From NCBI GenBank assembly GCA_027452245.1, contig DAIDGW010000079.1, positions 1 through 64,000 on the forward strand: 64,000 bases of DNA, read 5' to 3'. The notes beneath the pieces were generated by a model. The model was not told where the DNA came from. It made no database searches and saw nothing but the letters and a program-made list of their open reading frames with translations. Below, one piece after another: positions 2,476-63,572 of the stretch. How positions within the stretch are numbered: position 1 is the first letter of the stretch; each line of letters begins with the position of its first letter. Origin of the DNA: Acidobacteriaceae bacterium. Its GTDB lineage: Bacteria; Acidobacteriota; Terriglobia; Terriglobales; Acidobacteriaceae. The translations under genes and the position numbers were made by a program.

Positions 2476-2565
2476 CGTGGTATTCGCGCCCCCGATGCGG
2501 CGACCTGGAACGGCGGTGGTGAAGCTTTAACTCGACCACGAATACGATCGCACGCGCCCGCAAAA

Positions 2566-29992: not shown

Positions 29993-30026
29993 ACGCTGAT
30001 CGTAAATCCACAAAACCGCTATTGAC

Positions 30027-30060
30027 CGGTCTGGAAGCATCATGTCTAATTTCCAGACCG
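30027..30060 (+). promoter_or_regulatory. Perfect 10-base inverted repeat abutting the xylanase ATG
   Basis: CGGTCTGGAA (30027-30036) and TTCCAGACCG (30051-30060) are exact reverse complements with a 14-base spacer. The right arm ends one base before ATG 30061. A possible promoter TTGACC-17-TCTAAT (30022-30050) overlaps it. It could be an operator covering the -10 region, or an RNA hairpin controlling translation. Confidence 0.6.
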
Positions 30061-32731: not shown

Positions 32732-32763
32732 GTGGCGTACTTAACCATTTCAGGGAGGAAACA

Positions 32764-46493: not shown

Positions 46494-48482
46494 ATGTTAC
46501 GCGAGCATCTTCCCCTGAGCTGGGCGTATGACAAGACCTATGATCCGCAGTCCACGCAGAACGTTTTAACTGTTCTTTTCACCTTCATGCTCTTGCTGTC
46601 TTTGTTTGGATGTGCAGGCGGCACCGGCACCGCTCCGCCCAATCCCAGTAGTTCCTCCATTGCCGTGGCGGTCACTCCCCTGAGCGCGATCGTCTCGTCT
46701 TCTGGGACACAGCAATTTGCCGCCACTGTTAGCAACAGCAGCAATACTGCAGTGAATTGGTCCGTTTCTGCCGGAAAAATCTCTTCATCCGGCATGTTCA
46801 CCGCACCCACCGTTACGCAAGCAACGACCGTGAACCTGACAGTGACCAGCGTTGCCGATTCCAGCAAGTCTGCCAGCGCGGTCATCACTGTCCGTCCTGC
46901 AGCCGCCGGCCCCGTACCGCTCGCAGTCACAACCGATTCACTGGCCACCGCGATCACCGGCGTTCCCTACGGCGCCACCTTCTCTGCCACCGGTGGAACT
47001 TCGCCCTATACATGGACTCTCTCCTCCGGACAGTTGCCCGGCGGAATCACCCTCAGTTCAGGTGGTATTCTCTCGGGTACGACCAGTCAGTCCGGCCCTT
47101 ACAACTTCGTGGTGCGCGTTGCTGACTCGTCCTCTCCTGCGAATTCCGCCACGGGCTCATTCACTTTGGTGGTGGACAGCTCAGCGGTCAATAGCGGCGA
47201 GCCGCTGACCTTCTTCGGCATGCACGCGAACCACGCCTCCACTCCTTGGCCCAGCGTCCCGGTGGGAGCCATGCGGCTCTGGGACGCCGACAATGCCACC
47301 TGGCCATTCCTCAATACCGCGCAAGGCGCCTATGACTGGACCGTACTCGACACGCGCCTCGCCGAGGCGCAACAGAACAGCGCCGACGTTCTCTATGATC
47401 TTGGGCGCACCCCCGTCTGGGCGCAATGCGGCCCGTCCACTTCTTCGCCGTGCACGCAAACTCCCGGATGCGCCTACTCCACCAGTTCGTGGGGCGGCGG
47501 CCCGGGACAGTGCTACTGGCCGGGCGACTTGAATTCTGACGGCACCGGCAGCAACCAGCATTGGAAGGATTGGGTCACCGCCATCGCCACCCACAGCGTG
47601 AACAGCACGACGGCTCATATCAAGTATTACGAAATCTGGAATGAGCCCAACGACACCGACTACTTCCGTGGCACCACCGCGCAGTTGGTTCGTATGACCG
47701 CCGATGCCGCCTGCATCATCAAAGGCGTCGGCCCCGGCTGCACCAATCAGGCGATCGATCCCAACGCCATGATCGTGACTCCGGCAGCCACCTACGCGGG
47801 CGCTTTGATCAACACCTGGCTCTCCGGATTCTTCGCCGATGGCGGCGCACAGTACGTCGACGTCATCGCCTTCCACGGCTACGATGGAACGGTTCCCGAA
47901 AACATTGTGGGCATCGTGAGCACCATCGACTCCGGATCCATCGCCACCTACAACCAGTCCTCGAAACCCCTGTTCGACACCGAGTTCAGTTGGGGATTGA
48001 ACAATCCCATTACCGATCCCGATCAGCAGTCCGGCTTCGTGTCGCGTTCCCTGCTGTTGCACTGGAGTTCCAATGTGCAGCGCCTCTATTGGTACAGCTG
48101 GGACACCTCCGGAACCATGTGGAGCGCCACCAGCACCCCCGGATGCGCGACTCCGGATCCTAGCGGCAATGGATTCGACTGTGAAATCTCGCAGGCCTTT
48201 GCCGAAACGCAAAGCTGGATTCTCGACGCCACACTCACCGCGCCGTGTTCATCCTCAGGCACCGTTTGGACGTGCACTCTGACGAAGGCGAATGGCTATC
48301 AGGCGCTTGCTGTCTGGGATACCTCGCAAACCTGCAGCAACGGCCACTGCACGACTTCCAACTTCCAGATCCCTACCGGATCCGGTTATGTTCACTATCT
48401 CGATCTCGCCGGTCAAACCAGTTCCATGAGTGGATCGACCGTCGCCATCGGATACAAACCAATCTTGCTGCAAAATCAGTAA
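46494..48482 (+). CDS. Secreted clan-A glycoside hydrolase-like lipoprotein (GH39-like), copy 2
   Basis: A 662-residue paralogue of the divergent neighbour. The ATG follows GAGG by five bases. The N terminus is longer than a normal signal peptide, and the hydrophobic run ends LSLFGC-AGG, a lipobox with Cys at 40. The same order follows: BIG2-like domain (about 55-135), He_PIG domain (about 143-227), then the barrel. YYEIWNEPN gives acid/base E384, and LFDTEFSWG is the nucleophile block. Cys positions (CGPSTSSPCTQTPGC, CYWPGDLN) are kept. Copy 1 has no lipobox, so one product may be released and the other tethered. A terminator follows at 48499-48545. Confidence 0.78.
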   Translation: MLREHLPLSWAYDKTYDPQSTQNVLTVLFTFMLLLSLFGCAGGTGTAPPNPSSSSIAVAVTPLSAIVSSSGTQQFAATVSNSSNTAVNWSVSAGKISSSGMFTAPTVTQATTVNLTVTSVADSSKSASAVITVRPAAAGPVPLAVTTDSLATAITGVPYGATFSATGGTSPYTWTLSSGQLPGGITLSSGGILSGTTSQSGPYNFVVRVADSSSPANSATGSFTLVVDSSAVNSGEPLTFFGMHANHASTPWPSVPVGAMRLWDADNATWPFLNTAQGAYDWTVLDTRLAEAQQNSADVLYDLGRTPVWAQCGPSTSSPCTQTPGCAYSTSSWGGGPGQCYWPGDLNSDGTGSNQHWKDWVTAIATHSVNSTTAHIKYYEIWNEPNDTDYFRGTTAQLVRMTADAACIIKGVGPGCTNQAIDPNAMIVTPAATYAGALINTWLSGFFADGGAQYVDVIAFHGYDGTVPENIVGIVSTIDSGSIATYNQSSKPLFDTEFSWGLNNPITDPDQQSGFVSRSLLLHWSSNVQRLYWYSWDTSGTMWSATSTPGCATPDPSGNGFDCEISQAFAETQSWILDATLTAPCSSSGTVWTCTLTKANGYQALAVWDTSQTCSNGHCTTSNFQIPTGSGYVHYLDLAGQTSSMSGSTVAIGYKPILLQNQ

Positions 48483-48610: not shown

Positions 48611-49600
48611 TTGCCAGCGATCTTAAGACGCTTTGCCATTCTTTTCCTTCTTCTTGGCTCCGTATATTCGTGGTCTCAACCTTTCGTTGCCAAACCGCTC
48701 AACGATCTCGGAACCGGCAGGTACAAGGGCTTCGAAGGCGGCCTTTACGAAAACGGCAGCAACGTCGTACCTTCCGAACACAATATTGACGGATTGGCCC
48801 TCCTCGACCAGATCAAGCCGGTTCGCGGTAAATTCGTCTTCCTCGGAATCGGCATGAGCAACGCCATGATCGAGTTCGAGACCTTCAAGGATCTCGCCGC
48901 CGCCAGTGGCCGCGTCAATCACGATTCCATGGTCGTCGTGAACGGAGCCCTCGGTAATATGACCGCATGCGCCTGGGCTCCCGCAACCCATACTCCCCGT
49001 CAGCATAACTGCCGCATGCCGGGTTTCGTTCCCAACCAGTACGACCGGGTCCGCGACGAAATCCTCAAACCGCTGGGCCTCTCCGAAGACCAGGTCGAGG
49101 TCATCTGGATGCTCAACGCCGATCCTCGCCCGGACACTTCGTTGCCCGCCAGCGACGCCGACGCCTACGAGTACGAGCGCTATCTTGCCGACACCGTCCG
49201 CGCCACTCGCAAACGTTATCCCAACCTGAAAATGCTTTTCATCTCAAGCCGCGCCTACGCCGGATATGCAACCACACCGCTCAATCCCGAACCTTACGCC
49301 TATGAATACGGATTCTCCGTCAAGTGGGCCATCCAGGCGCAGATCGATCAATTGCGCGGCGGCAAAGTCGATAGTCGGGCTGGCGATCTCGATTACAAAA
49401 AAGGCGTTGCCCCCTGGATTGCATGGGGACCGTACCTGTGGGCAGATGGCACCACGCCGCGCTCCGATGGACTTACCTGGGATCGCTCCGAATTCGGCGA
49501 CGATGGCACCCATCCCAACTTCCGCGGACGCCAGAAAATCGCCCGCCTGCTCATGGACTTTTTCCTGAACTCGCCCTACACCATCTGGTTCAAGAAATAG
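48611..49600 (+). CDS. SGNH-hydrolase-like secreted protein, family member A (single-domain form)
   Basis: A 329-residue protein with no Ig domains. The frame is open far upstream but overlaps the GH39-like gene. TTG 48611 is chosen because GGGGAGG lies five bases before it and it yields a signal peptide (LRRFAILFLLLGSVYSWSQ). Family blocks are DLGTGRYKGFEGGLY, FLGIGMSNA (putative nucleophile S83, replacing the usual GDS), NPEPYAYEYGFSVKWA, WADGTTPRSDGL and DDGTHPNF near the C terminus, with D298 and H301 as the probable Asp-His pair. The layout fits SGNH esterases or acetylhydrolases, but the family is not one I can name. It is the simplest member and shows the minimal catalytic unit. Confidence 0.65.
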   Translation: MPAILRRFAILFLLLGSVYSWSQPFVAKPLNDLGTGRYKGFEGGLYENGSNVVPSEHNIDGLALLDQIKPVRGKFVFLGIGMSNAMIEFETFKDLAAASGRVNHDSMVVVNGALGNMTACAWAPATHTPRQHNCRMPGFVPNQYDRVRDEILKPLGLSEDQVEVIWMLNADPRPDTSLPASDADAYEYERYLADTVRATRKRYPNLKMLFISSRAYAGYATTPLNPEPYAYEYGFSVKWAIQAQIDQLRGGKVDSRAGDLDYKKGVAPWIAWGPYLWADGTTPRSDGLTWDRSEFGDDGTHPNFRGRQKIARLLMDFFLNSPYTIWFKK

Positions 49601-49789
49601 TCCAGCCCCGCTGGCTCCCCGCAATTGTTGGCGCGCGAGCCTTTCCCTCCGAAACTTTCTCCCGCATTCGGGGTTTGCCGAGAAGGTCAAGTCTGAATAC
49701 CTGTTCGCTCGCTGCCCTACATATTCCGGCCGCGGCTGCTGTCTGCCCTAATAATGACTACTTAGCTGAGGTGGTGTAAGAGCGCATCT

Positions 49790-51853
49790 ATGTGGGGTAG
49801 TTCACGATACGACCGCCCTCTCGCATTTGCCGTACTGCTTTGCCTGATTTCGGTCTATACCGCTTGCGGCGGGGGCTCTTCCTCCACGCAATCGGTTTCT
49901 CCGACACTCACTGCGCTGACGATCGCCCCGGCGAACCCGAGCGTGGGTATGGGCGTTACCCAGCAGCTAAAAGCAACTGGCCAATTCAGTAACGGTTCCA
50001 GTCAGGACGTCACCGCTTCCACTTCCTGGAGTTCTTCCGACACGACCAAGGCGACCTTCAGCCCGAGCACGGCTGGTCTGGTAAACGGAATCGCCGTCGG
50101 TTCCTGCACAGTAACCGCCACCTACCAGGGAAAATCTTCTACCGCTACTCTCACTATCCTGAGTATTGCCGGACTTTCAATTGGTCCGGCCAATCCCACC
50201 ATCCCGGTCGGCGGCACACAGCAGTTCACCGCCACCGCTACCTTCCAGAATGGCTCCACTGCCGTGGTTACCTCCCTCGCAACCTGGTCCTCGTCTGATA
50301 ACACGAGAGCCACAATTCAGAACACTGGACAGGCCAATCCCGGTCTCGCCACCGCTGTCAGCGCTGCCTCCCCCGCTCCGAATATTCAGGCCACCTTCGA
50401 GGGATCGACTGCCCTCACCCTGCTCTACATCAGCAGCAACGCTCCCCAAAATGGCCTGAGCCTGGGGGTTGTCAATCCTTCACTCTCGCCGGGAGCAACT
50501 TTGCAGATCGTCTCCGTCGCTGATTACACCGACGGATCCAGCAAGCCCGTGACCAGCCTGACAGCCTGGACTTCCTCCAACCCCGCGGTCGCCACCGTGA
50601 GTAGTGCCACTCCTGGACTCGTCTCCGCCCTCTCCGCCGGCCAGGCCACCATCACCGCCACTGATAACGGATTCTCGGCTACCGCAGCCTTGACCGTCTC
50701 ACCCTCTGCCGAAACCGTCCCACTTTCCGACATGACGCAATCGGGCCAGAACTATCTCGGATTCGTTGGCGGACTTTACGGCGCCAACAGCAATACCGTT
50801 CCATCCGGCCATGACTTCGATGGCAAAGCCCTCGCCGCTCAGATCACGCCTCTCGATCAGAACGGCAACCCCAGTGCCAGCGGAACTGTCGTTTTCCTCG
50901 GCATCGGTATGTCCAACGCCTTGATTGAATTCGGGCGTTTCATCACCGATGCCGCTGTTGTGGGATCGGGTGTGAACCAGACCAATCTGGGAATCGAGAA
51001 TGGCGCCCACGGCGCGGTCACGGCCTGCCCCTGGACTTTCGCCCAAGGCCTGCCCACCATCTGCGGCGGAACCGGGGTGCCTGCCGAAAATCAATACGAC
51101 CGCGTCCGCGACACCGTTCTCGCCACCGCCACCACCGCACCCAATGTGCCTGCCGGTTGTGGAACCACCACGTCTCCCTGCCTGACTGAATCTCAGGTGC
51201 AGGTCATCTGGATGACGAATGCCAACCCGGATCCCGGGCTCCGCGGCTATGACTCCCTGAGTTCCACCACGAACTGCGCCACCGAGGCATCCGCCGCGAA
51301 CTTCACCACCGAAGCTTGCCGCTACGAGTCGCAAATGGGAGCCATTGTCCGGGCCGCCAAATCGCGCTATCCCAACCTCAAGCTCATTTTCTTCAGCAGC
51401 CGCATCTACGCCGGCTACGCAGTGTCGACCCTCAATCCTGAGCCTTACGCCTACGAATACGGCTTCTCCGGACAATGGCTCGTCACCGCGCAAATCAATC
51501 AGATGAACAATTCCACAGTCGATCCGGTAGCCGGAGATCTCTCCTACAGCGTCTCCAATCCGCAGTCCTCCGTCGGCGCCTGGGTTGGCTGGTCGTCTTA
51601 TCTTTGGGCGGACGGTACCACCAAGCGCAGTGATGGCCTCAACTGGTGTAATGGCCAGCTCAGTTCGCCGTGCAATGGGGAGCAGGATTTCGCCACCGAC
51701 GGCACGCACCCCAGCTCCAGTAATCCCGATACTCCTCCCTACGACGGCGCTTATAAATTCGTCAGCGGTACGCCCTGGGGACTCATGCAATACTTCCAAA
51801 CCTCTCCGTATACTTGCCCGTGGTTCAGCGCCACTCCCGCCACCTGTCCGTAG
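49790..51853 (+). CDS. SGNH-like secreted lipoprotein, family member B, with BIG2 repeats
   Basis: A 687-residue protein. The N terminus has a lipoprotein-like signal (LCLISVYTAC-GGGSSS, Cys 26). Three BIG2-type Ig repeats follow (LTALTIAPANPSVGMGVTQQL, LSIGPANPTIPVGGTQQF, LGVVNPSLSPGATLQI). From about 320 the SGNH-like domain begins: GFVGGLYGANSNTVP, VVFLGIGMSNALIEF, NQYDRVRD, QVQVIWMTNANPDPG, NPEPYAYEYGFS and TDGTHPS at the end. It is closest to member A in the catalytic part but with larger Cys-containing insertions. The first 23 bases of the gene closely resemble the start of the small gene at 54542. Confidence 0.65.
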   Translation: MWGSSRYDRPLAFAVLLCLISVYTACGGGSSSTQSVSPTLTALTIAPANPSVGMGVTQQLKATGQFSNGSSQDVTASTSWSSSDTTKATFSPSTAGLVNGIAVGSCTVTATYQGKSSTATLTILSIAGLSIGPANPTIPVGGTQQFTATATFQNGSTAVVTSLATWSSSDNTRATIQNTGQANPGLATAVSAASPAPNIQATFEGSTALTLLYISSNAPQNGLSLGVVNPSLSPGATLQIVSVADYTDGSSKPVTSLTAWTSSNPAVATVSSATPGLVSALSAGQATITATDNGFSATAALTVSPSAETVPLSDMTQSGQNYLGFVGGLYGANSNTVPSGHDFDGKALAAQITPLDQNGNPSASGTVVFLGIGMSNALIEFGRFITDAAVVGSGVNQTNLGIENGAHGAVTACPWTFAQGLPTICGGTGVPAENQYDRVRDTVLATATTAPNVPAGCGTTTSPCLTESQVQVIWMTNANPDPGLRGYDSLSSTTNCATEASAANFTTEACRYESQMGAIVRAAKSRYPNLKLIFFSSRIYAGYAVSTLNPEPYAYEYGFSGQWLVTAQINQMNNSTVDPVAGDLSYSVSNPQSSVGAWVGWSSYLWADGTTKRSDGLNWCNGQLSSPCNGEQDFATDGTHPSSSNPDTPPYDGAYKFVSGTPWGLMQYFQTSPYTCPWFSATPATCP

Positions 51854-51897
51854 GAGTCAAACTTCTGGAGTCGTTCTGATGTGCAGTTTTCTTCATC

Positions 51898-51926
51898 TTG
51901 ACACCCACACTGGCCGACACCACAAT
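51898..51926 (+). promoter_or_regulatory. Candidate promoter for SGNH-like member C
   Basis: TTGACA and CACAAT are separated by 17 bases, about 127 bases before the ATG at 52053. The -35 is exact and the -10 is moderate. Confidence 0.35.
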
Positions 51927-52052
51927 GATGCGTCTGGAAAAAGCTCTTCTATCACCCGTCTTACAAGCTCTCTCCCTTAATTCGATGGAAATACGTATCC
52001 CATTGAATCGTAACCGTTTTATTATCTGGCTGAGCTTTGATAAAGAGAAGAC

Positions 52053-53981
52053 ATGAAGCCGATTGTGGACCGCAAATGCCTGCTGCCGCTGGTTCTGAGC
52101 GGCCTGCTGTTTCTGGCACATGCTGCCAGCGCACAAACGTCTTACACGATCAAACCGACCAGCAAAGATTTCGGTACTGTGACCGTAGGGTTGGTAAGCT
52201 CGTCCAGCGATTTCGTCGTGACCAACACAGGATCGACGGCGATTACGGTGAACAGCTACACGCTTTCCGTGCCGCAATTCTTGTTCTTTTCAGGCTGGGC
52301 GCCGAAAACCCTGCTTCCAGGTGAGTCAACCTCTTACGATCTCCGGTTCGCGCCCGGTGCGGCGCAAAGCTACTCCGGGACATTTACCATCAACGTCAAT
52401 AACACGCCCAACGTAATTTCTCTTACCGGCACAGGACAAACCGTGAATGCGTCTCCGGTGCTCAGCGCAACCTCGCTCGATTTCGGCTCGAATCCCGCGG
52501 GCCAAACCAGCCCTTCGCAAACCGTAACCGTCACCAATAACGGGACGGCCAAGGTTACTCTCTCCTCTATCACCGTCGATCCTCCTTTCCAGGTAAGTGG
52601 ATTCAGCGGATCCACGGTGATCAACGGCGGAGCTTCGTTTTCGGTACAGGTCAGCGCTCGCGGAACCTCGGCCGGCACCGACAAAAACGTTCTCGTCTTC
52701 AACTACGATGTCGCGCCCAGCAACGGCGTAGCGCTGTCAGCGACCACCACCACAGCGGCAGCATTGGCCATCACTTCTTTTCCCACGCTACCATTGGGCA
52801 CGGTCAAAGCCCCTTATCTTTCAACTTTGCTCGCCGCCGGCGGAACGCCGCCTTACGCATTCTCTCTCCCCTCCGGTTCGACTCTGCCCGGCGGACTCGC
52901 CCTTTCCAGCGCGGGAACGATCAGTGGCACTCTCGCCAAGAATGTTTCCGCAGGAACTTACAACTTCACTGTCCAGGTACAGGATTCCAGTTCGATCCCG
53001 AACATTGCGACCCTGCCCATGACTCTCAACGTTCTCCCTCTGACCGGCTCTCACTGCCAGAACATCACTTGGCTCATGGGGCAAACCGGCACGCCGGGTG
53101 TTCCTATCAATGATCTCGGCACAGGAAAATACCTTGGCAAGCAAGGTGGCCTTTATCCCAAGGGCACCAATGTTCCTCCACCCGACCACACTTCCGACGG
53201 TATTGCCATTGCCCAGACCGTTCAACCGCTCGACGCCAACGGAAATGTCGATCCTGTCAATGGCAAAATCGGCGTCTTGTCGGTCGGCATGTCCGCCACG
53301 TTCGACGTTTTCCTGACCTTCATGAACGATGCCAACAACGATCCTACAAAAAATCCCGCCGTCGTCTTTGTACCCGGAGCACAACCGCGGGCCAGCGCCG
53401 CAATGTGGGCCGATCCCAATAATGCCGTTTGGAATCCTGTATTCCAGAATTTCCTGCCACAAAGCGGCCTGACTGCCGACCAAGTCCAGATCGCCTGGGT
53501 CAATGATGGCGACCCGACTGAGGGAATCTTTCCTGGCAACATGCAGGCGACGCAGGCCAATCTCGAATCCATCGCTCAGAACCTGCATTCCAAGTTTCCC
53601 AACATGAAGCTCGCCTACTTTGGCACTCGTTTTTATGGCGGATATTCTAACGGCACCGCCCACCCAGCCAACCCCGAGCCCTTCGCGTACCAGAATGGAT
53701 TTGCCGTCAAGTGGAGCATTCAGGACCAACTCGCGGGCCTGGCTTCCCTCAACTACGACCCCAAGAAGGGACCCGTTATGGCTCCCTGGATGGCTTGGGC
53801 CCTCTACGATTGGGCGAACGGGTTGCTGGCCCGCAGCGACGGATTGGTTTGGACCTGCCAGGATATGGCATCCGACGGAACTCATCCTTCCGTGCCCTAC
53901 GGCCGCGAGAAAGACGCCAACATGCTGCTCTACTTTTTTAAAACCGACCAAACCACCACGCCGTGGTTTCTGGCGCAGTAG
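52053..53981 (+). CDS. SGNH-like secreted protein, family member C, with choice-of-anchor D modules
   Basis: A 642-residue exported protein (signal peptide ending AASAQ; GAGAAG upstream of the ATG). Two choice-of-anchor D-like modules (FGTVTVGLVSSSSDFVVTN, LDFGSNPAGQTSPSQTVTV) span about 30-235. A He_PIG domain (about 240-325) precedes the SGNH-like domain (about 335-642): NDLGTGKYLGKQGGLYPKG, VLSVGMSATFDVF, NPEPFAYQNGFAVKW, WANGLLARSDGLVW and SDGTHPS, ending in FFKTDQTTTPWFLAQ. It is nearer to members D-F than to A and B. Its last codons take part in an 11-base inverted repeat with 54008-54018. Confidence 0.68.
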   Translation: MKPIVDRKCLLPLVLSGLLFLAHAASAQTSYTIKPTSKDFGTVTVGLVSSSSDFVVTNTGSTAITVNSYTLSVPQFLFFSGWAPKTLLPGESTSYDLRFAPGAAQSYSGTFTINVNNTPNVISLTGTGQTVNASPVLSATSLDFGSNPAGQTSPSQTVTVTNNGTAKVTLSSITVDPPFQVSGFSGSTVINGGASFSVQVSARGTSAGTDKNVLVFNYDVAPSNGVALSATTTTAAALAITSFPTLPLGTVKAPYLSTLLAAGGTPPYAFSLPSGSTLPGGLALSSAGTISGTLAKNVSAGTYNFTVQVQDSSSIPNIATLPMTLNVLPLTGSHCQNITWLMGQTGTPGVPINDLGTGKYLGKQGGLYPKGTNVPPPDHTSDGIAIAQTVQPLDANGNVDPVNGKIGVLSVGMSATFDVFLTFMNDANNDPTKNPAVVFVPGAQPRASAAMWADPNNAVWNPVFQNFLPQSGLTADQVQIAWVNDGDPTEGIFPGNMQATQANLESIAQNLHSKFPNMKLAYFGTRFYGGYSNGTAHPANPEPFAYQNGFAVKWSIQDQLAGLASLNYDPKKGPVMAPWMAWALYDWANGLLARSDGLVWTCQDMASDGTHPSVPYGREKDANMLLYFFKTDQTTTPWFLAQ

Positions 53982-54018
53982 GAGCAGCAGAACCACGCAA
54001 CCGGCCTGCCAGAAACCA
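53964..54018 (+). repeat. 11-base perfect inverted repeat at the 3' end of SGNH-like member C
   Basis: TGGTTTCTGGC (53964-53974, inside the last codons) and GCCAGAAACCA (54008-54018) are exact reverse complements, 33 bases apart. TTTCAT follows. It may act as a weak terminator. The right arm read on the minus strand encodes KWFLA, resembling the PWFLA end shared by members C-F, so a remnant copy is possible. Confidence 0.4.
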
Positions 54019-54541
54019 TTTCATCCCACGCAGTTGCACGCTGGATTGATCAGCGACCTCAATACGGGCGGTTCCGGCGGCGGCAAAAGTCAAGCCCCTT
54101 TTTGCGATCGATGCACCGTGACTGGTGCAGAGCGCTTCTAATCCGCTGAATCCAGAGTCGATCGACAGCCATATTGCTGTGTAAATCAATTCACATATGT
54201 CGTTTATTTTCAACTATATACAAACGAACGTTGAACCGTTTTAACTCCCCGTCAGAAGCGGCCCATCGGTGACCGAGAATAAGATCGAGCCGGGGGAGAT
54301 CATCGCTTCATCCACCCTTCTAAGTGCCGCATTGGCCATTTCTGCAGCTGGACGGAAGAGCCTTTCGACAAGAATAAATCCCTCAATCCAACGCTCCCGC
54401 GCAGGCTGTGATTCTGCTCATAGCAAAGTAAAAACAGTACGCGCAAAATACAGGCAGCATTTTCTAGCCGATGGTGCGATTCCGCGCTTGATTCAATCTG
54501 GTAGTTCAACCTTCTACTTCAAGTTCAAGGAGGGCGCATCC
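53982..54541. other. 560-base intergenic region
   Basis: It lies between SGNH-like member C and a small exported protein. It contains the right arm of the inverted repeat above and a small hairpin at about 54110-54127 (TGCACC / GGTGCA, without a T-run). An AT-rich stretch lies at about 54170-54245. The plus-strand frame upstream of 54542 stays open but has no coding character. No RNA gene is recognised. Confidence 0.35.
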
Positions 54542-54970
54542 ATGTGGAGTAATTCAATATTCCCGAAAGTTGCAGCCACGCTCGTTGGATTGATGCTCGG
54601 CGCGGCCGGTGCATTCGCCGTAAGCCGGCCGGGGACCATGATCGGCAGATCGGGTCATATCTGGCTCAACCAACCCACGCAGATTGATGGCATGACCTTG
54701 AAACCAGGACAGTATCGAATCTGGCACGAAACTACCGATTCGCGGAATGCGCTGGTCATTCACCAGGTCGGGGATCCCGACCTTGCCCTGCAGAACTCGG
54801 ATCTGGAAATGGTCGGAACGCCCGTTTCTGTGTCGTGCCGAGTGCAAGCGCTCGATGTCCCCGCCAGACGTACGATGGTGACGACTGTGCCCGCTGGCCG
54901 CGGAAAGCGCATTACTCGTGTCGAAATCAAGGGGGAGAGGATCGCGCTTCTTTTAAAAGCGTCTGAGTAA
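54542..54970 (+). CDS. Small exported protein of unknown function
   Basis: A 142-residue protein. ATG 54542 is preceded by AAGGAGGG at a seven-base distance, which decides the start against the longer open frame. The signal peptide (VAATLVGLMLGAAGAFA) is followed by strands such as WLNQPTQIDGMTLKPGQYRIWHE and a basic C-terminal part (RGKRITRVEIKGERIALLLKASE). The pattern is reminiscent of small exported beta-sandwich proteins seen in acidobacteria. I cannot name a family. It is next to another small membrane-protein gene. Confidence 0.62.
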   Translation: MWSNSIFPKVAATLVGLMLGAAGAFAVSRPGTMIGRSGHIWLNQPTQIDGMTLKPGQYRIWHETTDSRNALVIHQVGDPDLALQNSDLEMVGTPVSVSCRVQALDVPARRTMVTTVPAGRGKRITRVEIKGERIALLLKASE

Positions 54971-55061
54971 AGGAAGAAAGTGGTGTTTGCGATTGCACGC
55001 TCCGGCGGAGGTAAACATCCAAAACTGTTACGCGCATACGCAATCTGGAAGAGGAGAAGAC

Positions 55062-55289
55062 ATGCCTGATCGGGAGTTCACTATGCCGGAGATCGGCCTT
55101 TTCGCCGCAACTCGAGTCGCCCTGGGAATTGGTATTGGCCTGTTGATTTCACGCTCGCTCAGCAAAGACTCGTCAAAAGCGGCGGGCATCGCGCTTACCG
55201 TGATGGGAGGCCTGACCACCATCCCATTCATCATGCGGGCCGCCTCACGTTGCAAATCCGATGTTTCGGAAATCAGGACGGCTGCGTAA
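55062..55289 (+). CDS. Small membrane protein of unknown function
   Basis: A 75-residue protein starting at ATG 55062 after GAGGAGAAG. It has two hydrophobic segments (LFAATRVALGIGIGLLIS and GIALTVMGGLTTIPFIM) and short polar ends, so it is probably an inner-membrane hairpin. No motif is recognised. It follows the 54542 gene by 91 bases in the same direction and faces the terminator of the minus-strand operon. Confidence 0.55.
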   Translation: MPDREFTMPEIGLFAATRVALGIGIGLLISRSLSKDSSKAAGIALTVMGGLTTIPFIMRAASRCKSDVSEIRTAA

Positions 55290-55320
55290 ACGCCGCCATC
55301 CATCACCTGGCAGACCGCAC

Positions 55321-55351
55321 AAAAAAAGCCGCCAGCTTTCGCAGGCGGCTT
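55321..55351 (-). terminator. Strong terminator of the six-gene minus-strand operon
   Basis: Read on the minus strand, AAGCCGCC pairs with GGCGGCTT around a 10-base loop and runs into a seven-T tract. It lies 28 bases beyond the stop codon of SGNH-like member D. Confidence 0.92.
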
Positions 55352-55378
55352 GAATTGCAGACTACCCTTTCCGCGGGA

Positions 55379-57325
55379 CTACTGCGGAGGAGCCAGGAAC
55401 CACGGCGCGGTGGTATCCGCGGTTTTGAAGAAGTTCAGGATCTGCAGCGCGTCCTTCTGCTTCCCTTTCGGGATCGAAGGATGGTTGCCGTCCGCCTTCG
55501 CGTCCTGACAACTGAAGACCAGGCCGTCGCTGCGCGCGAGCAATCCGTTCGCCCAGTAATACGCACCCCAGGCCAACCAGGGTGCCTTCACAGGTCCATT
55601 CGCCGAGTTGTAGTTGAGCGCCGGCGATCCGTTGAGTTGAGCCGCAATCATGTTCTTTACCGCAAATCCCGACTCGTACGCATAAGGCTCATCGTTGGCT
55701 GGATGCAGAATTCCGTTCGAATAACCCGTGTAGTAGCGCGACGAGTAATATGCCAGCTTCAGATTGGGGAAATAATTGTGAAGGTTCTGCGCCAATCCTT
55801 CGAGTTGTCCCGTCAATTGGTACATATCGCTGGGAAATGTTCCGCTGCTGAGCGCATCTGACTCTGCCACCCATGCGGCCACCACTTGATTAGCTGTCAC
55901 GCCCGCTTGGGGAAGCAGGTAGTTCAAGTCGGAAGCCCATACCGAATCTTTCGGATCGGCATAGCGCGATCCGAGTACTCCGTTCATGGCCAGGTTCACA
56001 ATGACCAGCTTGGGATTGACGGTCGGGTCGGCTTGGGCCGCCGAGATAAATCCATCCCAATCCGTGTGTGCGGTGGACATGCCCACCCCGATCAGCACCT
56101 CTTTGCCATTCAGCGGATCGGGATTGCCATTGGCATCGAGCGGCTGAATGGCATTCGCGAAAGCCATTCCGTCCGCATCATGACTGGCGGGCATGAGGTT
56201 GCTGCCATTGGGATACAGGCCGCCTTCAAAGCCTTGATAAGTCCCAGTTCCAAGATCGGTCAGAGGAACCATCGGCGTCGTCGTGCCAGTTACATCGGTC
56301 GTGATGTTGTTGCAATTCGATCCTGTGGGAGCATCCACGGGCAAAGTCATCTGTGCGGTCGCGGTGTTGTTGCTTGTGTCCGTTACCTGCACGGTGAATG
56401 GATAGTTTCCCAGCTTCACCGTAGAAGCCACGCTACCGGTGATCGAACCCGAACTGGACAGCGTGAGGCCGGAGGGCAGCGTGGACCCTGCCGCCAAGGC
56501 CCATGTAGTGGATCCGACATTGCCCGCTGGCAGCAGCGTGGCCAGATACGCCGCGCCTTGCGTTGCTGATGGCAATATCGAGTAGCTCGCAACCGCTAAT
56601 GCCGTCGCGGCAGTTCCAGTTCCTGTCAGGCTCACGCCTTTCCCCGGAACGTTATCGAAGCTGAAATAAAGAGTGCTGTAATACGTACTCGCGGAAGGTG
56701 CGTAAAACGTAACCGGAAAATTAAGAGTCGTGCCCGGCTTCATGATCGTAGGCAGGGTATATCCCGAGATCGTAAATGGCGGATCAATGGTGATGGCATT
56801 CAGCGTCATGTTCGATTTCCCGGTATTGGAAACCGAAACCGTGGTCGGGGCGCTCGTCGTGCCCACCGGCTGACTGAAGGCGTATGTCGCAGGCGTGACC
56901 GAGGCCGCAGCCAGAGTCTTCTTCCCGGTTCCCGTAAGAGTCACGACTGCCGGTTGGCTGTAGCCGTCAATCGTCATCGAGATGCTTCCCGTGAAGGTCT
57001 GCACCGCATCGGGCACGAAGTTGAGCTGAAAGGCCATGCTTTCTCCGGGATTCAACGTTACCGGGGCATAACCATCAATCAAATGGAATTCCGACGGCGT
57101 AATACTGAAACTGCTGATCGTCAAGGTCGTGGTGCTTGTGTTTGTAATGGAGGCTGTCGATCCGTTGCTCGGCATACCGACGGCAATCTGCCCCCAACTG
57201 ATCTGCCCTGAGGCAGGAAGGACCTTGTATTGCGCGTGCGCCGGAATGGCGAGCGTCGCAATGATGGCCAGGAGCAGCAACTTGGCCATGCTCTCCACTG
57301 CAGATCTTGTGTCCTTATGCTTCAT
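55379..57325 (-). CDS. SGNH-like secreted protein, family member D
   Basis: A 648-residue exported protein whose signal peptide ends PAHAQ; a CAGGGAG site lies upstream of ATG 57325. Two choice-of-anchor D-like modules (WGQIAVGMPSNGSTASITN and YAFSQPVGTTSAPTTVSVS) are followed by a He_PIG domain (about 245-335) and the SGNH-like domain. Blocks are DLGTGTYQGFEGGLYPNGSN, VLIGVGMSTAH, NDEPYAYESGFAVKN, PWLAWGAYYWANGLLARSDG and DGNHPS, ending APWFLAPPQ. In the last block Thr of DGTHP is Asn, but the Asp and His are kept. It is the distal gene of the operon, just before the terminator. Confidence 0.7.
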   Translation of the reverse strand: MKHKDTRSAVESMAKLLLLAIIATLAIPAHAQYKVLPASGQISWGQIAVGMPSNGSTASITNTSTTTLTISSFSITPSEFHLIDGYAPVTLNPGESMAFQLNFVPDAVQTFTGSISMTIDGYSQPAVVTLTGTGKKTLAAASVTPATYAFSQPVGTTSAPTTVSVSNTGKSNMTLNAITIDPPFTISGYTLPTIMKPGTTLNFPVTFYAPSASTYYSTLYFSFDNVPGKGVSLTGTGTAATALAVASYSILPSATQGAAYLATLLPAGNVGSTTWALAAGSTLPSGLTLSSSGSITGSVASTVKLGNYPFTVQVTDTSNNTATAQMTLPVDAPTGSNCNNITTDVTGTTTPMVPLTDLGTGTYQGFEGGLYPNGSNLMPASHDADGMAFANAIQPLDANGNPDPLNGKEVLIGVGMSTAHTDWDGFISAAQADPTVNPKLVIVNLAMNGVLGSRYADPKDSVWASDLNYLLPQAGVTANQVVAAWVAESDALSSGTFPSDMYQLTGQLEGLAQNLHNYFPNLKLAYYSSRYYTGYSNGILHPANDEPYAYESGFAVKNMIAAQLNGSPALNYNSANGPVKAPWLAWGAYYWANGLLARSDGLVFSCQDAKADGNHPSIPKGKQKDALQILNFFKTADTTAPWFLAPPQ

Positions 57326-57385
57326 TGATTGGTATCTCCCTGAGTTCGAGCCACTATGTTGTGAAGTGGATTCTTCTGAATTCTT

Positions 57386-59332
57386 TCAATGCGCCAAAAA
57401 CCATGGAGCCGTTGTGTCGTCAGTCTTAAAAAAGTTCAGCAAAATATTCGCGCCTTTGTCGCGTCCGGGAAGGGGAGGTAATGAGGGATGAATTCCATCC
57501 GAGGTATAGTCCTGGCATGTCCAGACAAATCCATCTTCCCGGGGAAGCAGTCCGTTGGCCCAGACGTAGGACGACCAGTCCATCCACGGAGCTTTCACCG
57601 GGCCATTCGCCGGGTTGTAGTTGAGCGATGCCAGCCCGTCTAACTGATCCTGAATCGACCATTTGACGGCGAAATTGGATTCATAGGCGTACGGCTCGGG
57701 GCTCTCGGGATTGCGGGGGTTATTGGAGTAGCCGCCATACATCCGGCCGGTGAAATACGCCAGCTTCAGATTTCTGAATTTGCGGTGGAGGTTCTGCGCA
57801 ATCTCCTCCAGGTTCGATTGCAGGGTGCTCATATCCTGTGGAAAGGTTCCGCTGGGATAGGAAACATCGCTTACCCAGGCCGCGACCACTTGGCTGGGCG
57901 TCACATTCGACTGAGGCAAAAAGTAGTCGATAATGTCGGCCCAGACGGGAGCATTCCCCTGCGCAAAATCTCCTGCCGTGGCATTGTCCTGCGCGCCATT
58001 GACCAGCACGAGATGAGTTTTGTCGACAGTCGGGTCGGCGAAAACGAAATTCTGCAGGCCGACGAACAAAGTGTGCGAGGCTGACATCCCGATCGACAGC
58101 AGAACATATTTGCCGTTCGGATCGCGCTTGCCGTTCGAATCGAGAGGATAGATGCTATCCGCAAACTTGACTCCGTCAGAGTCATGCCCGGCCGGACGTA
58201 TATTCGAGCCCCCCGGATACAGTCCTCCCTCAGATCCGAGATAGGTCCCGGTTCCAAGATCGGGCAGATCGATCAGCGGTGAAGTCGTGCCGGCAACATC
58301 GCTCGTGATCGCGGAGCACTTTGCCCCGGTCTGGGCATTGACCGTGAACGACAGTGTGGCATACGCAACATTGGAAGCCGAATCCGTGACCATCACGCTG
58401 AAGGGATAATTCCCATTGGCCACAGTCGATTCCAACGTTCCACTGATGATCCCCGTGTTCGATAAAGTAAGACCTTGCGGAAGGCTTGTGCCTGCAGCCA
58501 GCGTCCAGTAAGTCGTACCAACCCCTCCGGCTGAAGTCAGTTCTGCGTAATAAGCACTGGCATGGGTGGCCAGGGGCAGCACCGGAAAGGTGGTAACCGC
58601 CAGTCCAGACGGGGCCACCGCCGTCGCAGTCAAAGCCGCGCCTGAGGAGTTCACCACATCGTGAGAAAAAACCAGCGTTCCGTTGTAAGTACCGGCTTGC
58701 GTGGCGAAGTAGGTGACCTGCACGCTGGTCGATTGCCCCGGGCCGAGGGTGACAAGCCCGTTGTAGCCGCTCAATGAAAAGGGCGGCAGGACGGTGGCGG
58801 CCGTTACTTCCAGATTCGACGTTCCCATATTGGTGACCGTCACCGTCTGCGGGGCGCTGGTCGAACCCAGGGGCTGAGGGCCAAAGGTCAAGGTCGTGGG
58901 CGACACCTGCGCAATGGCTCCCGTAATGTATGCCGTGCCGGTGATGGGAACGACGACTGGATTGGAAACACCGGAGATATTAATCGTCAGTTGCCCGGAG
59001 AACTTCTGAGCCAAATCAGGCACAAACCTGATCTGATAGACTTCCTTCCCGCCAGGAGGAAGAGTAATAGGCGCCCAGCCGTCTACTAGCTGAAATTCTG
59101 ACGGGCTGAGGGAGAAACTGCTGATCGTAAAGGACTGAGTTCCCGTATTCAGTACAGTGATACTCTTCCCGCTGCTGGCGATTCCCACCGGGTTCTTCGG
59201 TCCGAAGCTGATCGAAGCCGGAGTCACTGAGTAAGAGACCTGTGCCTGGGCCGTCATCGCGAGAAGGAACACGGCCGCTCCTGCGATAATCGCAACCGAC
59301 TTCAACTTATGCAATACGTGTCTGAAAGTCAT
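57386..59332 (-). CDS. SGNH-like secreted protein, family member E
   Basis: A 648-residue protein. ATG 59332 is chosen because it begins a good signal peptide (SVAIIAGAAVFLLAMTAQAQ); a start 75 bases upstream would overlap the neighbouring gene. Modules follow the same order: two choice-of-anchor D-like domains (FGPKNPVGIASSGKSITV, LTFGPQPLGSTSAPQTVTV), He_PIG, and SGNH-like. Catalytic-domain blocks are DLGTGTYLGSEGGLYPGGSN, LLSIGMSASHTLF, SPEPYAYESNFAVKWSIQ, WANGLLPREDGF and SDGIHPS. REDG replaces RSDG, and Ile replaces Thr in DGTHP. It is co-directional with members D and F, separated by about 50-60 bases. Confidence 0.7.
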   Translation of the reverse strand: MTFRHVLHKLKSVAIIAGAAVFLLAMTAQAQVSYSVTPASISFGPKNPVGIASSGKSITVLNTGTQSFTISSFSLSPSEFQLVDGWAPITLPPGGKEVYQIRFVPDLAQKFSGQLTINISGVSNPVVVPITGTAYITGAIAQVSPTTLTFGPQPLGSTSAPQTVTVTNMGTSNLEVTAATVLPPFSLSGYNGLVTLGPGQSTSVQVTYFATQAGTYNGTLVFSHDVVNSSGAALTATAVAPSGLAVTTFPVLPLATHASAYYAELTSAGGVGTTYWTLAAGTSLPQGLTLSNTGIISGTLESTVANGNYPFSVMVTDSASNVAYATLSFTVNAQTGAKCSAITSDVAGTTSPLIDLPDLGTGTYLGSEGGLYPGGSNIRPAGHDSDGVKFADSIYPLDSNGKRDPNGKYVLLSIGMSASHTLFVGLQNFVFADPTVDKTHLVLVNGAQDNATAGDFAQGNAPVWADIIDYFLPQSNVTPSQVVAAWVSDVSYPSGTFPQDMSTLQSNLEEIAQNLHRKFRNLKLAYFTGRMYGGYSNNPRNPESPEPYAYESNFAVKWSIQDQLDGLASLNYNPANGPVKAPWMDWSSYVWANGLLPREDGFVWTCQDYTSDGIHPSLPPLPGRDKGANILLNFFKTDDTTAPWFLAH

Positions 59333-59382
59333 GGCAGTCACCCCACAAATGAAATGAGGGCCCGTGTCCTTATCGCAGGTTC

Positions 59383-61347
59383 CTAACTGCTCGGCGCCAA
59401 AAACCATGGCACAGTCGTGTCATCACTTTTGAAGAAATTCAACAGCATGTCTGTATCTTTTTCCCGCCCTGCGGGATTCGAAGGATGCGTACCATCCGAT
59501 TGAATGTCCTGACAGCTCCACACCAATCCATCGCTGCGCGGAATCAGTCCGTTCGCCCAGTCATAATCCGCCCACGACATCCAGGGAGCCATCACCGGAC
59601 CCAGTGCGGGGTTATAGTTCAGCGAAGGCGATCCGTTGATCTGATCTTCAATTGCCCATTTGACAGCAAAGGCGGACTGATAGGCATACGGCTCGGTATC
59701 CGCCGGGTCGCGAACTCCGTAAGAATATCCCCCGTAGTAGCGGCTGGTGAAATAAGCCAACTTCAGGTTCGGAAACAATGTATGCAGGTTCTGCGCGATG
59801 GATTCCAGGTCCGCCTTGAGCAGATCCATGTCGGTGGGGAACGTACCGGTGGGATTGCCGATTACATCCATGATCCAGGCTGCAACCACTTGATTGGCAG
59901 TTACCCCAGATTGCGGCAGGTAATAACTCTGAATGGTTGCCCAGTAAGGACTCGTGATCGAAGACAAATCTGCGGCACCAGCTTTCGGCTCAGCCCCCGG
60001 AACCATCACCAGGTATGAGTTCTTCATCGGGTCGGCGTCAAGGTTGGTGGTGAACTGCTGGAAGTCATCAAACGCAATAGAATTCCCAACGGACAGGAGC
60101 GCATACTTCCCATTCGGATCGTAATTGCCATTGCCATCCAGCGGCTGAATGCCCTGCGCAATCGCGACTCCATCGGCATCATGCAATGGGGGCCTGACGT
60201 TGCTTCCGTTCGGATAGAGGCCCCCCTCGTAGCCGAGGTAAAGGTTATTTCCCAGATCCGTAATCGGGACCAGCGGAGGTGCGGAATTTCCCAGAGGCCA
60301 ACTGATGTTATTGCAGGCCGCACCCGTAGGCTTGTCCACGGGCAAGGTCAACTGTGCCGTTGCCGTGTCCGGGGGCACGTTCGAATCGGTCGCCATGACG
60401 CCGATTGAATAGTTGCCCACAGTCACGCTTGAATTGAGTGTCCCCGAGAGGATGCCCGCCGAGCTAAGTGACAGCCCGAGAGGCAGAATGGTTCCGGGCG
60501 ACAGTTTCCAGGATACGGCACCCACTCCCCCACTCGCACTCAGGGTTGCCGAGTATGCCGCGAGTTGAGTGGCGCTGGGAAGGGTGGCGTAAGTACTAAT
60601 TCCGAGGGAGGTTGGAGTAACTCCGGTACCTTGCAGGTCGATGCCACTCGCCGGGACACCCGCGTAGCTGACGACTAATACATTGTCAAAGGTTCCCGGG
60701 GCCGTGGCCGTAAAGGTGACGTTAAAAGAGGCCGATTGCCCCGGTTTCAGCGTCCCGGTGTTGCCTGAAACGGTAAATGGAGGCTGCACGCTGATCGAGT
60801 TAACCGACAGGTTAGCCTTGCCAATATTTTTCACCGTCGCGCTCTGCGGAGCGCTAGTGGTGCCAACCGGAACATTTCCGAAGTTCAGCGACAAGACTGA
60901 GAGCTGCGGCAAGGCCGAGGTTGTGTATCCGTGTCCGGTCAGATTCACAACAATGGGACTCGTCAGGCAGGATACGTTGAGCGTGAACTGGGCCGTTACC
61001 GTTCCCTGAGCCGTGGGAACAAAAATGACCGCGAAATTCGCTACTTGCCCGGGCCCGAGGGTAATCGGGGCAGCTCCGTAGTTCAGGTAAAACTCTGGTG
61101 ATCCAGAGAGCGAAAAGCTACTGACGGTAAAACTGGAGCTTCCCGTATTGGTGATTGAGATTGGCTGGGAGTGGCTCTGCAATCCAACATATGCGTTAAC
61201 AGATGCGGAAAGCGAGGCTGGAACCATCTTGTAACTCTGCGCCGCCGCATTGCCGGGCCACAGCGAGAACGCGACCGCCATACTGAGTACGCAGAAATAA
61301 AGGCGGCTGAGCTTCGATTTCGCCGCGGCTGAGGTTGTCCCTTCCAT
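59383..61347 (-). CDS. SGNH-like secreted protein, family member F
   Basis: A 654-residue protein starting at ATG 61347 behind CGGAGGG. The signal peptide (LYFCVLSMAVAFSLWPGNAAAQ) is preceded by a short basic stretch. It has two choice-of-anchor D-like modules, a He_PIG domain and the SGNH-like domain with DLGNNLYLGYEGGLYPNGSN, EPYAYQSAFAVKWAIEDQI, DWANGLIPRSDGL and SDGTHPS. The first block reads LLSVGNSIA: the putative nucleophile Ser is kept while the usual Met before it is Asn. The start lies 11 bases after the sulfotransferase stop, which links the SGNH family to sulfated-glycan synthesis. Confidence 0.7.
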   Translation of the reverse strand: MEGTTSAAAKSKLSRLYFCVLSMAVAFSLWPGNAAAQSYKMVPASLSASVNAYVGLQSHSQPISITNTGSSSFTVSSFSLSGSPEFYLNYGAAPITLGPGQVANFAVIFVPTAQGTVTAQFTLNVSCLTSPIVVNLTGHGYTTSALPQLSVLSLNFGNVPVGTTSAPQSATVKNIGKANLSVNSISVQPPFTVSGNTGTLKPGQSASFNVTFTATAPGTFDNVLVVSYAGVPASGIDLQGTGVTPTSLGISTYATLPSATQLAAYSATLSASGGVGAVSWKLSPGTILPLGLSLSSAGILSGTLNSSVTVGNYSIGVMATDSNVPPDTATAQLTLPVDKPTGAACNNISWPLGNSAPPLVPITDLGNNLYLGYEGGLYPNGSNVRPPLHDADGVAIAQGIQPLDGNGNYDPNGKYALLSVGNSIAFDDFQQFTTNLDADPMKNSYLVMVPGAEPKAGAADLSSITSPYWATIQSYYLPQSGVTANQVVAAWIMDVIGNPTGTFPTDMDLLKADLESIAQNLHTLFPNLKLAYFTSRYYGGYSYGVRDPADTEPYAYQSAFAVKWAIEDQINGSPSLNYNPALGPVMAPWMSWADYDWANGLIPRSDGLVWSCQDIQSDGTHPSNPAGREKDTDMLLNFFKSDDTTVPWFLAPSS

Positions 61348-61358
61348 GAGCCCTCCGA

Positions 61359-62429
61359 TTAAGCCGACTCTCCCGTTTGTTTGGTTTGGGAGAGGAACTG
61401 TCCGGCTTTCGCTGAACGGTACTTTTGCAACAATCCAATAGGGCCAAAGCTGTAAATAAGGACAACGATGGTATCCAGTGCGCGGTAGGCGCGGAACAAG
61501 CACTCATCGGCGACACGCTCCGGGAAGCTCGGCAACTCGCGGCGTTCTTCTTCCGCATCTGCCGCTTCCGGGGGCCACGCGTCGCTATACTGCCTGCGCC
61601 ATAGACTTACATAACGTGCAATCTTCCGCTTCATGGCCAAGGGCAGAACCTCCGGCCGCGGATTCTTGGAGACAATCTTCTCGCTCTTGACGCCGGAGTG
61701 ATGTTCCCCTTCGTAGATGGCGGAACGGTCCGCGCCATCAAGCGTCGTCATCTTCAATTCAAATGGAACTCGGAGAAATTCGGCGATTCCCCGCATCACC
61801 TGTTCCGGCTGATGCACGAGATCCTCATATTGAATTTCGTGCACAGCCACGCCCGCCTGAAGCAGGCGATCAGCCTCCACTTTCATGCGGTGCAAGCCGA
61901 ATAATGCGCGATGCGGAATCCCGCGCTTGGTAAACCATCTATCTTTTTTGGCGGCGCGCAGGATGCTTCGGCATACATCCGCGGGATGGCGCCAAATAAT
62001 GATGAATTGGGCGTCAGGAAAGTCGCGAGCGATCCGTCCCAGGGAGTCATAGTAATTCGGTGACTTGCATCCCCAGATGCAGGCGCTTTTGCCAACGGCG
62101 TAGCGGCCGTAGACGGCACGCATCGCAGATGCCAAGCCATCGATCTTCTCGGAAAACTGTTGGGCATTGAGCTTGTGTCGGCTCAGTGCGCTGTTCCAGA
62201 ACTCCCACCGCGCAAGCCAGCCCCGCCTGCCTGCGTTCGTAATAAAGAGCGGCCACAGTACCGGCAATTCGCCTTCATACATGAGCGCAATCTGGCTGTG
62301 CTGGTTGAGCAAGGCATAGAGCAGAGAAGTTCCGGAGCGCCACATGCCAACAACGAACAGCGGGCTGCGACGAAGATCGTCCGCTTGTTGTGGGACGGTT
62401 GCGCTTTCTGTGGTTGGAACGGTGCCCAT
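61359..62429 (-). CDS. PAPS-dependent sulfotransferase
   Basis: A 356-residue cytoplasmic sulfotransferase. The 5'-phosphosulfate-binding loop is VVGMWRSGTSLLYALLN (27-42), with the usual RSGTS core. The 3'-phosphate-binding segment is IIIWRHPADVCRSIL (143-157), with Arg and Ser in their family places. Downstream, VHEIQYEDLVHQPEQVM is the conserved late block. The enzyme moves sulfate from PAPS to a hydroxyl of a sugar, lipid or peptide. Here, between a GDP-sugar epimerase and secreted SGNH-like proteins, a sugar acceptor is most likely. A C-terminal hydrophobic patch (LDTIVVLIYSFGPIGLL) may hold it near the membrane. Confidence 0.88.
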   Translation of the reverse strand: MGTVPTTESATVPQQADDLRRSPLFVVGMWRSGTSLLYALLNQHSQIALMYEGELPVLWPLFITNAGRRGWLARWEFWNSALSRHKLNAQQFSEKIDGLASAMRAVYGRYAVGKSACIWGCKSPNYYDSLGRIARDFPDAQFIIIWRHPADVCRSILRAAKKDRWFTKRGIPHRALFGLHRMKVEADRLLQAGVAVHEIQYEDLVHQPEQVMRGIAEFLRVPFELKMTTLDGADRSAIYEGEHHSGVKSEKIVSKNPRPEVLPLAMKRKIARYVSLWRRQYSDAWPPEAADAEEERRELPSFPERVADECLFRAYRALDTIVVLIYSFGPIGLLQKYRSAKAGQFLSQTKQTGESA

Positions 62430-63513: not shown

Positions 63514-63572
63514 GTTCCCGTTCCTCTCCTGAATTCTCACCAAAATGAAGTTCCTTACTCGTCAGCTATTGC

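Follow-up and report, generated by a model that had tools for sequence, protein, structure and literature searches.

Here we analysed a 64,000-base window of a genome from an Acidobacteriaceae bacterium (assembly GCA_027452245.1), in which six open reading frames (ORFs), members A to F, share a C-terminal domain of approximately 300 residues. We propose that the six proteins, which we place in an unnamed family of the SGNH superfamily, are probably serine esterases that are secreted, best read as carbohydrate O-acyl esterases. The window opens the 100,897-base contig DAIDGW010000079.1, of which it spans positions 1 to 64,000, and the genome measures 6.2 Mb with an estimated completeness of 97.6%. 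Its genes have their closest named relatives in Acidobacteriaceae and other Terriglobia. Members A, B and C lie on the forward strand and D, E and F on the reverse strand, and the two half-arrays face one another (Table 1).

All 15 full-protein pairs were significant by BLASTP, and because even the weakest pair, B and F, reached an E-value of 4.8e-24, chance similarity among the six members was ruled out. The blocks GGLY, G[MN]S, EP[YF]AY, R[SE]DG and DGxHP occur in identical order in every member, confirming an earlier note, made from the sequence of this DNA alone, that had described six homologous proteins with these shared blocks, three on each strand. Block I reads GMS in A to E and GNS in F. 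Catalytic-domain identity is 52% between A and B and 54–60% within C to F, against 34–39% when A or B is compared with C to F. A search of the whole genome for the domain recovered six copies at E ≤ 0.001, every one within the array. The N-termini of the array members read as signal-peptide-like, in keeping with the secretion that the note had also claimed, and member A starts at a TTG codon with GGGGAGG five bases upstream. The gap between the half-arrays holds one small ORF (54542–54970, forward strand, 142 aa), which is probably secreted and matches no Pfam family at E ≤ 1e-5.

We scanned 84,980 genomes, one per species; the 470 pattern matches included 432 relatives, of which the best 80 were kept. 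The main alignment has 87 rows, comprising the six window rows and 81 rows with full-length domains from 74 of the 80 scanned loci; L006, L066, L070, L071, L076 and L081 were omitted as split or incomplete. Ser61 and His279 (A numbering) are present in 87/87 rows and Asp276 in 86/87, and no array member has lost the Ser or the Asp-His pair. In the predicted structure of A, Ser61 comes directly after strand 52–59 and opens helix 61–76, with the Asp-x-x-His motif just ahead of the last long helix. The F model has the same layout with Ser66, Asp261 and His264. A Ser after strand 1 and an Asp-x-x-His before the last helix constitute the SGNH layout, as described in PMC9487903. The conserved Ser and late Asp-x-x-His that the earlier note had singled out are positioned as the nucleophile and the block V pair. 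The GMS form of block I, which it had treated as an oddity, turned out to be ordinary, as Met is the family norm (81/87 rows) in a domain found at 432 places in the genome scan.

Comparison with an SGNH reference profile from the phylum matched the DGxHP block to the reference block (E 9e-5 in a single comparison, probability 59). The reference profile has 46 rows and was drawn from 59 loci, among which several genes appear twice because both searches had retrieved them. In hhalign alignments, the Asp-x-x-His aligned with the reference pair in 4/4 settings, and Ser61 fell on the reference GDS Ser in 2/4 settings and was unaligned in 2/4. Gly90, the block II candidate, follows strand 85–89 and is present in 86/87 rows, with a Leu in D; hhalign did not place it on the reference Gly. 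The family also has conserved stretches of its own, namely SSRxYxGY...NPEPYAYE after strand 4 and W250, W255, R262 and D264 after strand 5, which may act as substrate contacts. W250 and W255 are present in 87/87 rows and Y194 in 84/87. Conserved Trp and Tyr residues would suit a sugar-binding site.

Structures of the A and F domains were predicted with AlphaFold2. The A model, from the 87-sequence alignment, has a mean predicted local distance difference test (pLDDT) score of 96.6 and a predicted template modelling (pTM) score of 0.94; the F model, from an F-headed alignment of 53 of the same 87 rows, has a mean pLDDT of 93.1 and a pTM of 0.92. In the VIA structure comparison, A matched CE3 5b5s first (Z 14.7, root-mean-square deviation 3.1, 184 residues aligned), followed by PatB 8tlb (Z 14.3), isoamyl-acetate esterase 3mil (Z 14.1), Cj0610c and CE3 2vpt. 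Going by title or enzyme name, 44 of the best 50 rows for A can be classed as esterases, as lipases or acylhydrolases, as acyltransferases or as GDSL proteins; the titles of the other six are neutral (2o14, 2hsj, 3dc7, 7bxb, 7bxc and 2apj). The top matches of F were CE3 5b5l and 2vpt, at Z 13.7 each. Since VIA rows within one Z unit are tied, the closest structural family cannot be named, and the absence of a family from the VIA lists does not exclude it. Foldseek ranked the GDSL esterase Cj0610c first for A (E 1.2e-6), with 11/12 matches at E ≤ 0.001 of SGNH type, and the picture for F was similar. Matches in a viral structure library, at 9–18% identity, included many unnamed proteins besides esterases, lipases, hydrolases and tail proteins. 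Together, the models support a prediction that the catalytic domain has a five-stranded alpha/beta SGNH-type fold, in agreement with the fold suggested by the earlier note.

In sequence searches, the domain of the six window proteins matched no Pfam or NCBIfam entry above cut-off. A few chance-level entries (E 0.1–0.8; GAD-like, Leader_CPA1 and Peptidase_S15) that overlap the domain of C, E and F were rejected, and A had no such entry. NCBIfam over the 87 rows returned scattered weak entries only (best E 0.036), and PDB sequence searches found no relative of the domain, the best matches (E 0.17 and 0.88) both being unrelated. Lipase_GDSL (PF00657) matched 8/87 rows weakly (best E 5.9e-4) and Lipase_GDSL_2 (PF13472) likewise 8/87, with a best E of only 0.01; neither matched any of the six window proteins at E ≤ 1. 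When searched against the organism's own genome, each of these two profiles found two other genes and not the array. SASA / CE6 (PF03629) and PatB / DUF459 are both absent from the 12 Pfam families matched by any of the 87 members at E ≤ 1. We found no paper recognisable as on this family in the open-licence literature searched. Judged from the models, this appears to be an unnamed family within a well-known superfamily, which bears out the earlier description of the family as undescribed.

CE3 (SGNH; 2vpt, 5b5s) is among the best structural matches of both models and likewise has a Ser after strand 1 and an Asp-x-x-His near the end. This likeness is structural only and known here from predicted models: identity is 9–14%, and the family domain is approximately 100 residues longer, has GMS rather than GDS, and carries its own GGLYP N-terminus and SSRxYxGY...NPEPYAYE loop. 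The PatB / DUF459 peptidoglycan O-acetyltransferases (8tlb, 8gr2, 7tlv) share the SGNH fold and an extracytoplasmic location and are within Foldseek ranks 1–4 for A, but identity is 7–14% and DUF459 is unmatched by the 87 members. The SASA / CE6 sialate and xylan acetylesterases (PF03629; 1zmb, 2apj) also share the fold (Z 12.4 and 12.3 for A). According to PMC9487903, SASA too is without the usual block III Asn and has a Gln beside the block I Ser and an HQGE motif, whereas our family has a Met before the Ser and a consensus without HQGE. CE20 esterases, described in PMC12313940 as SGNH carbohydrate esterases with an unusual active-site architecture, were compared via the general structure and family searches only.

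Relatives of the domain occur in Acidobacteriota, Gemmatimonadota, Planctomycetota, Myxococcota, Actinomycetota, Rhodothermota, Ignavibacteriota, Chloroflexota and candidate phyla. The distribution is widespread but patchy; with the window's genome included, the domain is present in 16/297 genomes sampled from the phylum and in 11/150 from the family. A relative with approximately 37% identity is found on seven Streptomyces plasmid records, annotated 'hypothetical protein'. A maximum-likelihood tree of 108 domain rows, with incomplete domains and identical copies omitted and a bootstrap that was not fully settled, has two sides with support of 100/99. A and B fall within an 11-row Acidobacteriota set (100/99) on one side of this split, and C to F within an 18-row Acidobacteriaceae set (100/100) on the opposite side. 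Because of the split, the array comprises two plus four genes from two old subfamilies, not the single six-copy local expansion that the earlier note had proposed. The module swapping between array members that it envisaged is not demonstrated. C to F share one common architecture. A, without a module, and B, with Big_2, differ from each other, so modules were gained or lost within the A/B subfamily. Selection for different targets, also raised there, is possible.

A congener in the same genus (G403) has best-match counterparts of all six members at 60–76% identity and in the same order, spread over two contigs. The first carries the glycosidase-like pair, A, B and C, and the second D, E, F, a further glycosidase-like gene, a sulfotransferase and an epimerase; since the C counterpart lies near a contig end, continuity of the two half-arrays is likely. 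G403 and locus L003 (Terriglobia bacterium SRVP_7) are probably one genome. Ratios of nonsynonymous to synonymous substitution (dN/dS) against the congener are approximately 0.07 for A, 0.11 for B, 0.12 for C and 0.06 for D, with saturated dS, and undefined for E and F; they point, in qualitative terms only, to purifying selection on A to D. Given these low values and the congener's counterparts of all six, the array appears to be an old inherited set. Other sampled genomes of the genus include two with 2 and 3 copies and one with none. An IS1595-type transposase gene lies between the B and C counterparts in L003 (12444–13433, reverse strand). Two genomes of another genus in the same family, G339 and G387, each have ten match pieces, some from one gene and far more divergent (best E approximately 1e-46 to 1e-45); these copies are perhaps a second, separate expansion of the family.

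Table 1 Array members, catalytic codons and flanking genes in the 64,000-base window.
Feature	Position	Strand	Details
Glycosidase-like protein, paralogous	44163-46130	-	Divergent from the 46494-48482 gene
Glycosidase-like protein with He_PIG	46494-48482	+	128 bp upstream of A, same strand; pair also in L003 and L004
Member A	48611-49600	+	329 aa; signal peptide and catalytic domain only
Catalytic domain of A	48677-49597	+	Computed codons: Ser61 48857-48859, Asp276 49502-49504, His279 49511-49513
Member B	49790-51853	+	N-terminal Cys motif, three Big_2 stretches, catalytic domain 50708-51850
Member C	52053-53981	+	Two choice_anch_D stretches, Ig-like region, catalytic domain 53097-53978
Member D	55379-57325	-	Two choice_anch_D stretches, He_PIG, catalytic domain 55382-56275
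Member E	57386-59407	-	Two choice_anch_D stretches, He_PIG, catalytic domain 57389-58279
Member F	59383-61347	-	Two choice_anch_D stretches, Ig-like region, catalytic domain 59386-60276, GNS block I; ORF open to 61503
Sulfotransferase (Sulfotransfer_3)	61359-62429	-	11 bp upstream of F, same strand
NDP-sugar epimerase/dehydratase	62512-63543	-	

Pfam scans took in 28 window ORFs and upheld most of the modules that the earlier note had listed: the domain alone in A, three Big_2 repeats in B and two choice_anch_D modules in each of C to F. The He_PIG domain it gave to all four of the latter passes the Pfam cut-off in D and E only and is not listed for C and F at E ≤ 1; the C to F proteins align with one another across this region by BLASTP. 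For the lipobox of B, the N-terminal Cys motif is present and the canonical form is not, as it reads YTAC with a Tyr at -3, so lipidation of B is plausible, though the motif is non-canonical. Partner domains were scanned in 38 full-length relatives with extra length, where we found Por_Secre_tail in 7, He_PIG in 5, Big_2 in 4, Dockerin_1 in 2, and a partial GH26 and a GH115_C in 1 each. Por_Secre_tail is N-terminal of the domain in L060, L028 and L051, where it is not the usual tail, and C-terminal in L072. The partial GH26 module of L072 is N-terminal to the domain (E 2.7e-7, above cut-off, positions 160–262 of 311), and GH115_C stands alongside the family domain in L016. L060 (Rhodothermales) also encodes two tandem domain copies in one protein (780–3140), the second cut by the contig end. 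Very large proteins with a C-type domain are encoded in L192 (3003–9323, genome G421, approximately 2107 aa) and L188 (3989–7777, genome G084, approximately 1263 aa).

The protein encoded directly upstream of A passes the Glyco_hydro_cc cut-off and has weaker GH39 and GH5 matches. Its paralogue passes the GH5 'Cellulase' cut-off and has weak PDB matches to GH39 beta-xylosidases. We take both to be of the clan GH-A kind. A glycosidase-like gene stands directly before the A-type gene in 3/4 A-type loci (those of the window, L003 and L004; L005 lacks it), and in the congener the F counterpart and the sulfotransferase are separated by a further gene distantly related to it (31.5%). The right flank, ahead of D to F on the same strand, encodes sulfotransferases, an epimerase, WecG-type and group 1 glycosyltransferases, an O-antigen-ligase-like protein and nonribosomal peptide synthetase (NRPS) genes. 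The NRPS-type genes, with condensation, adenylation and thioesterase domains, lie among the glycan genes right of the window (L114, 5274–9389 and 16725–18605, reverse strand). This neighbourhood is kept in the genus and in L004 and not beyond them. A PQQ-propeller-like protein (38533–40980, named by reading) that is also a neighbour in L186 and L188 was dropped as a candidate partner, as the genome holds seven matches to it. Two adjoining tryptophan-halogenase-like flavoproteins (31346–34116, forward strand) lie beside a GH10 protein (30022–31134).

The glycosidase-like neighbour and the partner domains of relatives favour an extracellular carbohydrate esterase for A. In the proposed mechanism, Ser61 at the end of strand 1 would attack the ester carbonyl, aided by His279 and Asp276, and the acyl group would be held on Ser61 until freed by water. 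An extracellular polysaccharide would be the substrate, and the esters on it would be O-acyl and most likely O-acetyl groups. Member A probably partners the glycosidase of the gene just upstream, removing esters to open the chain to cleavage. B, a probable lipoprotein, and C to F, with their long Ig-like stalks, may hold this activity at different distances from the cell. D to F could equally well act on exopolysaccharide made by the cell itself.

Several results weigh against this proposal. Foldseek TM-scores for A are modest (0.42/0.58 for the best match), and 1/12 of its matches at E ≤ 0.001 is a Rossmann-fold dehydrogenase, 1jtv, with dehydrogenases frequent lower down; VIA, which included the 1000 best Foldseek chains, ranked none of those dehydrogenases among its 50 rows for A or F. 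The glycosidase-like gene neighbours the family only in the window's genus and L004, and in 2/14 Acidobacteriaceae regions, both of them the congener's. When the neighbours at the 80 scanned loci were clustered, no partner gene proved specific to the family or shared across phyla; besides the family itself, the largest sets were antisense shadow ORFs (13 loci), regulator-like or kinase-like proteins (9 and 8 loci) and gene sets that close relatives have in common (at most 5 loci). The block III Asn is not fixed either. Position 149 is Asn in 44/87 rows and Asp in 32/87, and within the array it is Asp in A, C and D, Asn in B, a gap in E and Ile in F; hhalign set the reference Asn one column on, at Pro150, in 2/4 settings and gave no match in 2/4. 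With a variable position and an offset or missing placement, the Asn that gives SGNH its third letter is not demonstrated here.

Since this Asn could not be located with certainty, the oxyanion hole may depart from the canonical form. According to PMC9487903, the SASA, DHHW (PatB1) and PC-esterase families have altered oxyanion holes and so offer precedents. A tentative and rather doubtful extension is that this SGNH family, extracellular and widespread, dispenses with a fixed Asn in block III and stabilises the oxyanion otherwise, for example by Arg192, Asn62 or, in most relatives, Lys146, and that the C to F branch rebuilt the site further. Arg192 is present in 83/87 rows and in all six members. 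Asn62 is present in 77/87 rows, including A and B; together with Glu66 of the family consensus it is lost in C to F. Lys146 is present in 74/87 rows and absent from all six array members. If true, this would be a new active-site layout, acting on a polysaccharide ester so far assigned to no esterase family.

The same irregularities could mean that some members, E and F above all and perhaps D, are no longer catalytic and serve for binding or as stalks. The block III column in E and F, the Leu of D at the block II Gly and the missing Asn62 and Glu66 of C to F would fit such a loss, but we consider it improbable, with the Ser and Asp-His pair intact throughout and the D domain 80% identical to its counterpart at a dN/dS of approximately 0.06. 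It is unlikely, if slightly less so, that the proteins are secreted SGNH-fold lipases or phospholipases. The fold does serve lipid esterases, and lysophospholipase PlaA (8a26) matches A at Z 12.5, but carbohydrate esterases and O-acetyltransferases rank above it, though Z differs by only approximately 2, and the glycosidase-like neighbours and the partial GH26 fusion speak against a lipid substrate.

PatB-like extracytoplasmic O-acyltransferases, which would attach acyl groups to glycan made by the cell itself or shift them on it, are a somewhat better fit, if still an unlikely one. PatB structures are among the closest to A (8tlb, Z 14.3; 7tlv, Foldseek E 3.2e-6), D to F follow a same-strand sulfotransferase, epimerase, WecG-type glycosyltransferase and O-antigen-ligase-like protein, and PMC9487903 describes some O-acetyltransferases of the superfamily as lacking the standard oxyanion hole. 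Conversely, no MBOAT or AT3 membrane partner was found, at cut-offs of 1e-5 and 1e-8, among 20 window proteins or seven L114 proteins, which cover part of the region only, and the Ig-like stalks of relatives and the dockerins in 2/38 suggest work outside the cell. Secreted carbohydrate O-acyl esterases remain our preferred interpretation.

Member A, a single-domain protein of 329 aa, is a convenient target for expression and crystallography. At least 432 places in the one-genome-per-species collection, across many phyla, encode this domain, for which we found neither a family name nor a solved structure; once named, it would be an additional candidate family of carbohydrate esterases. The array itself offers a natural set in which two subfamilies would present one shared chemistry on different stalks.

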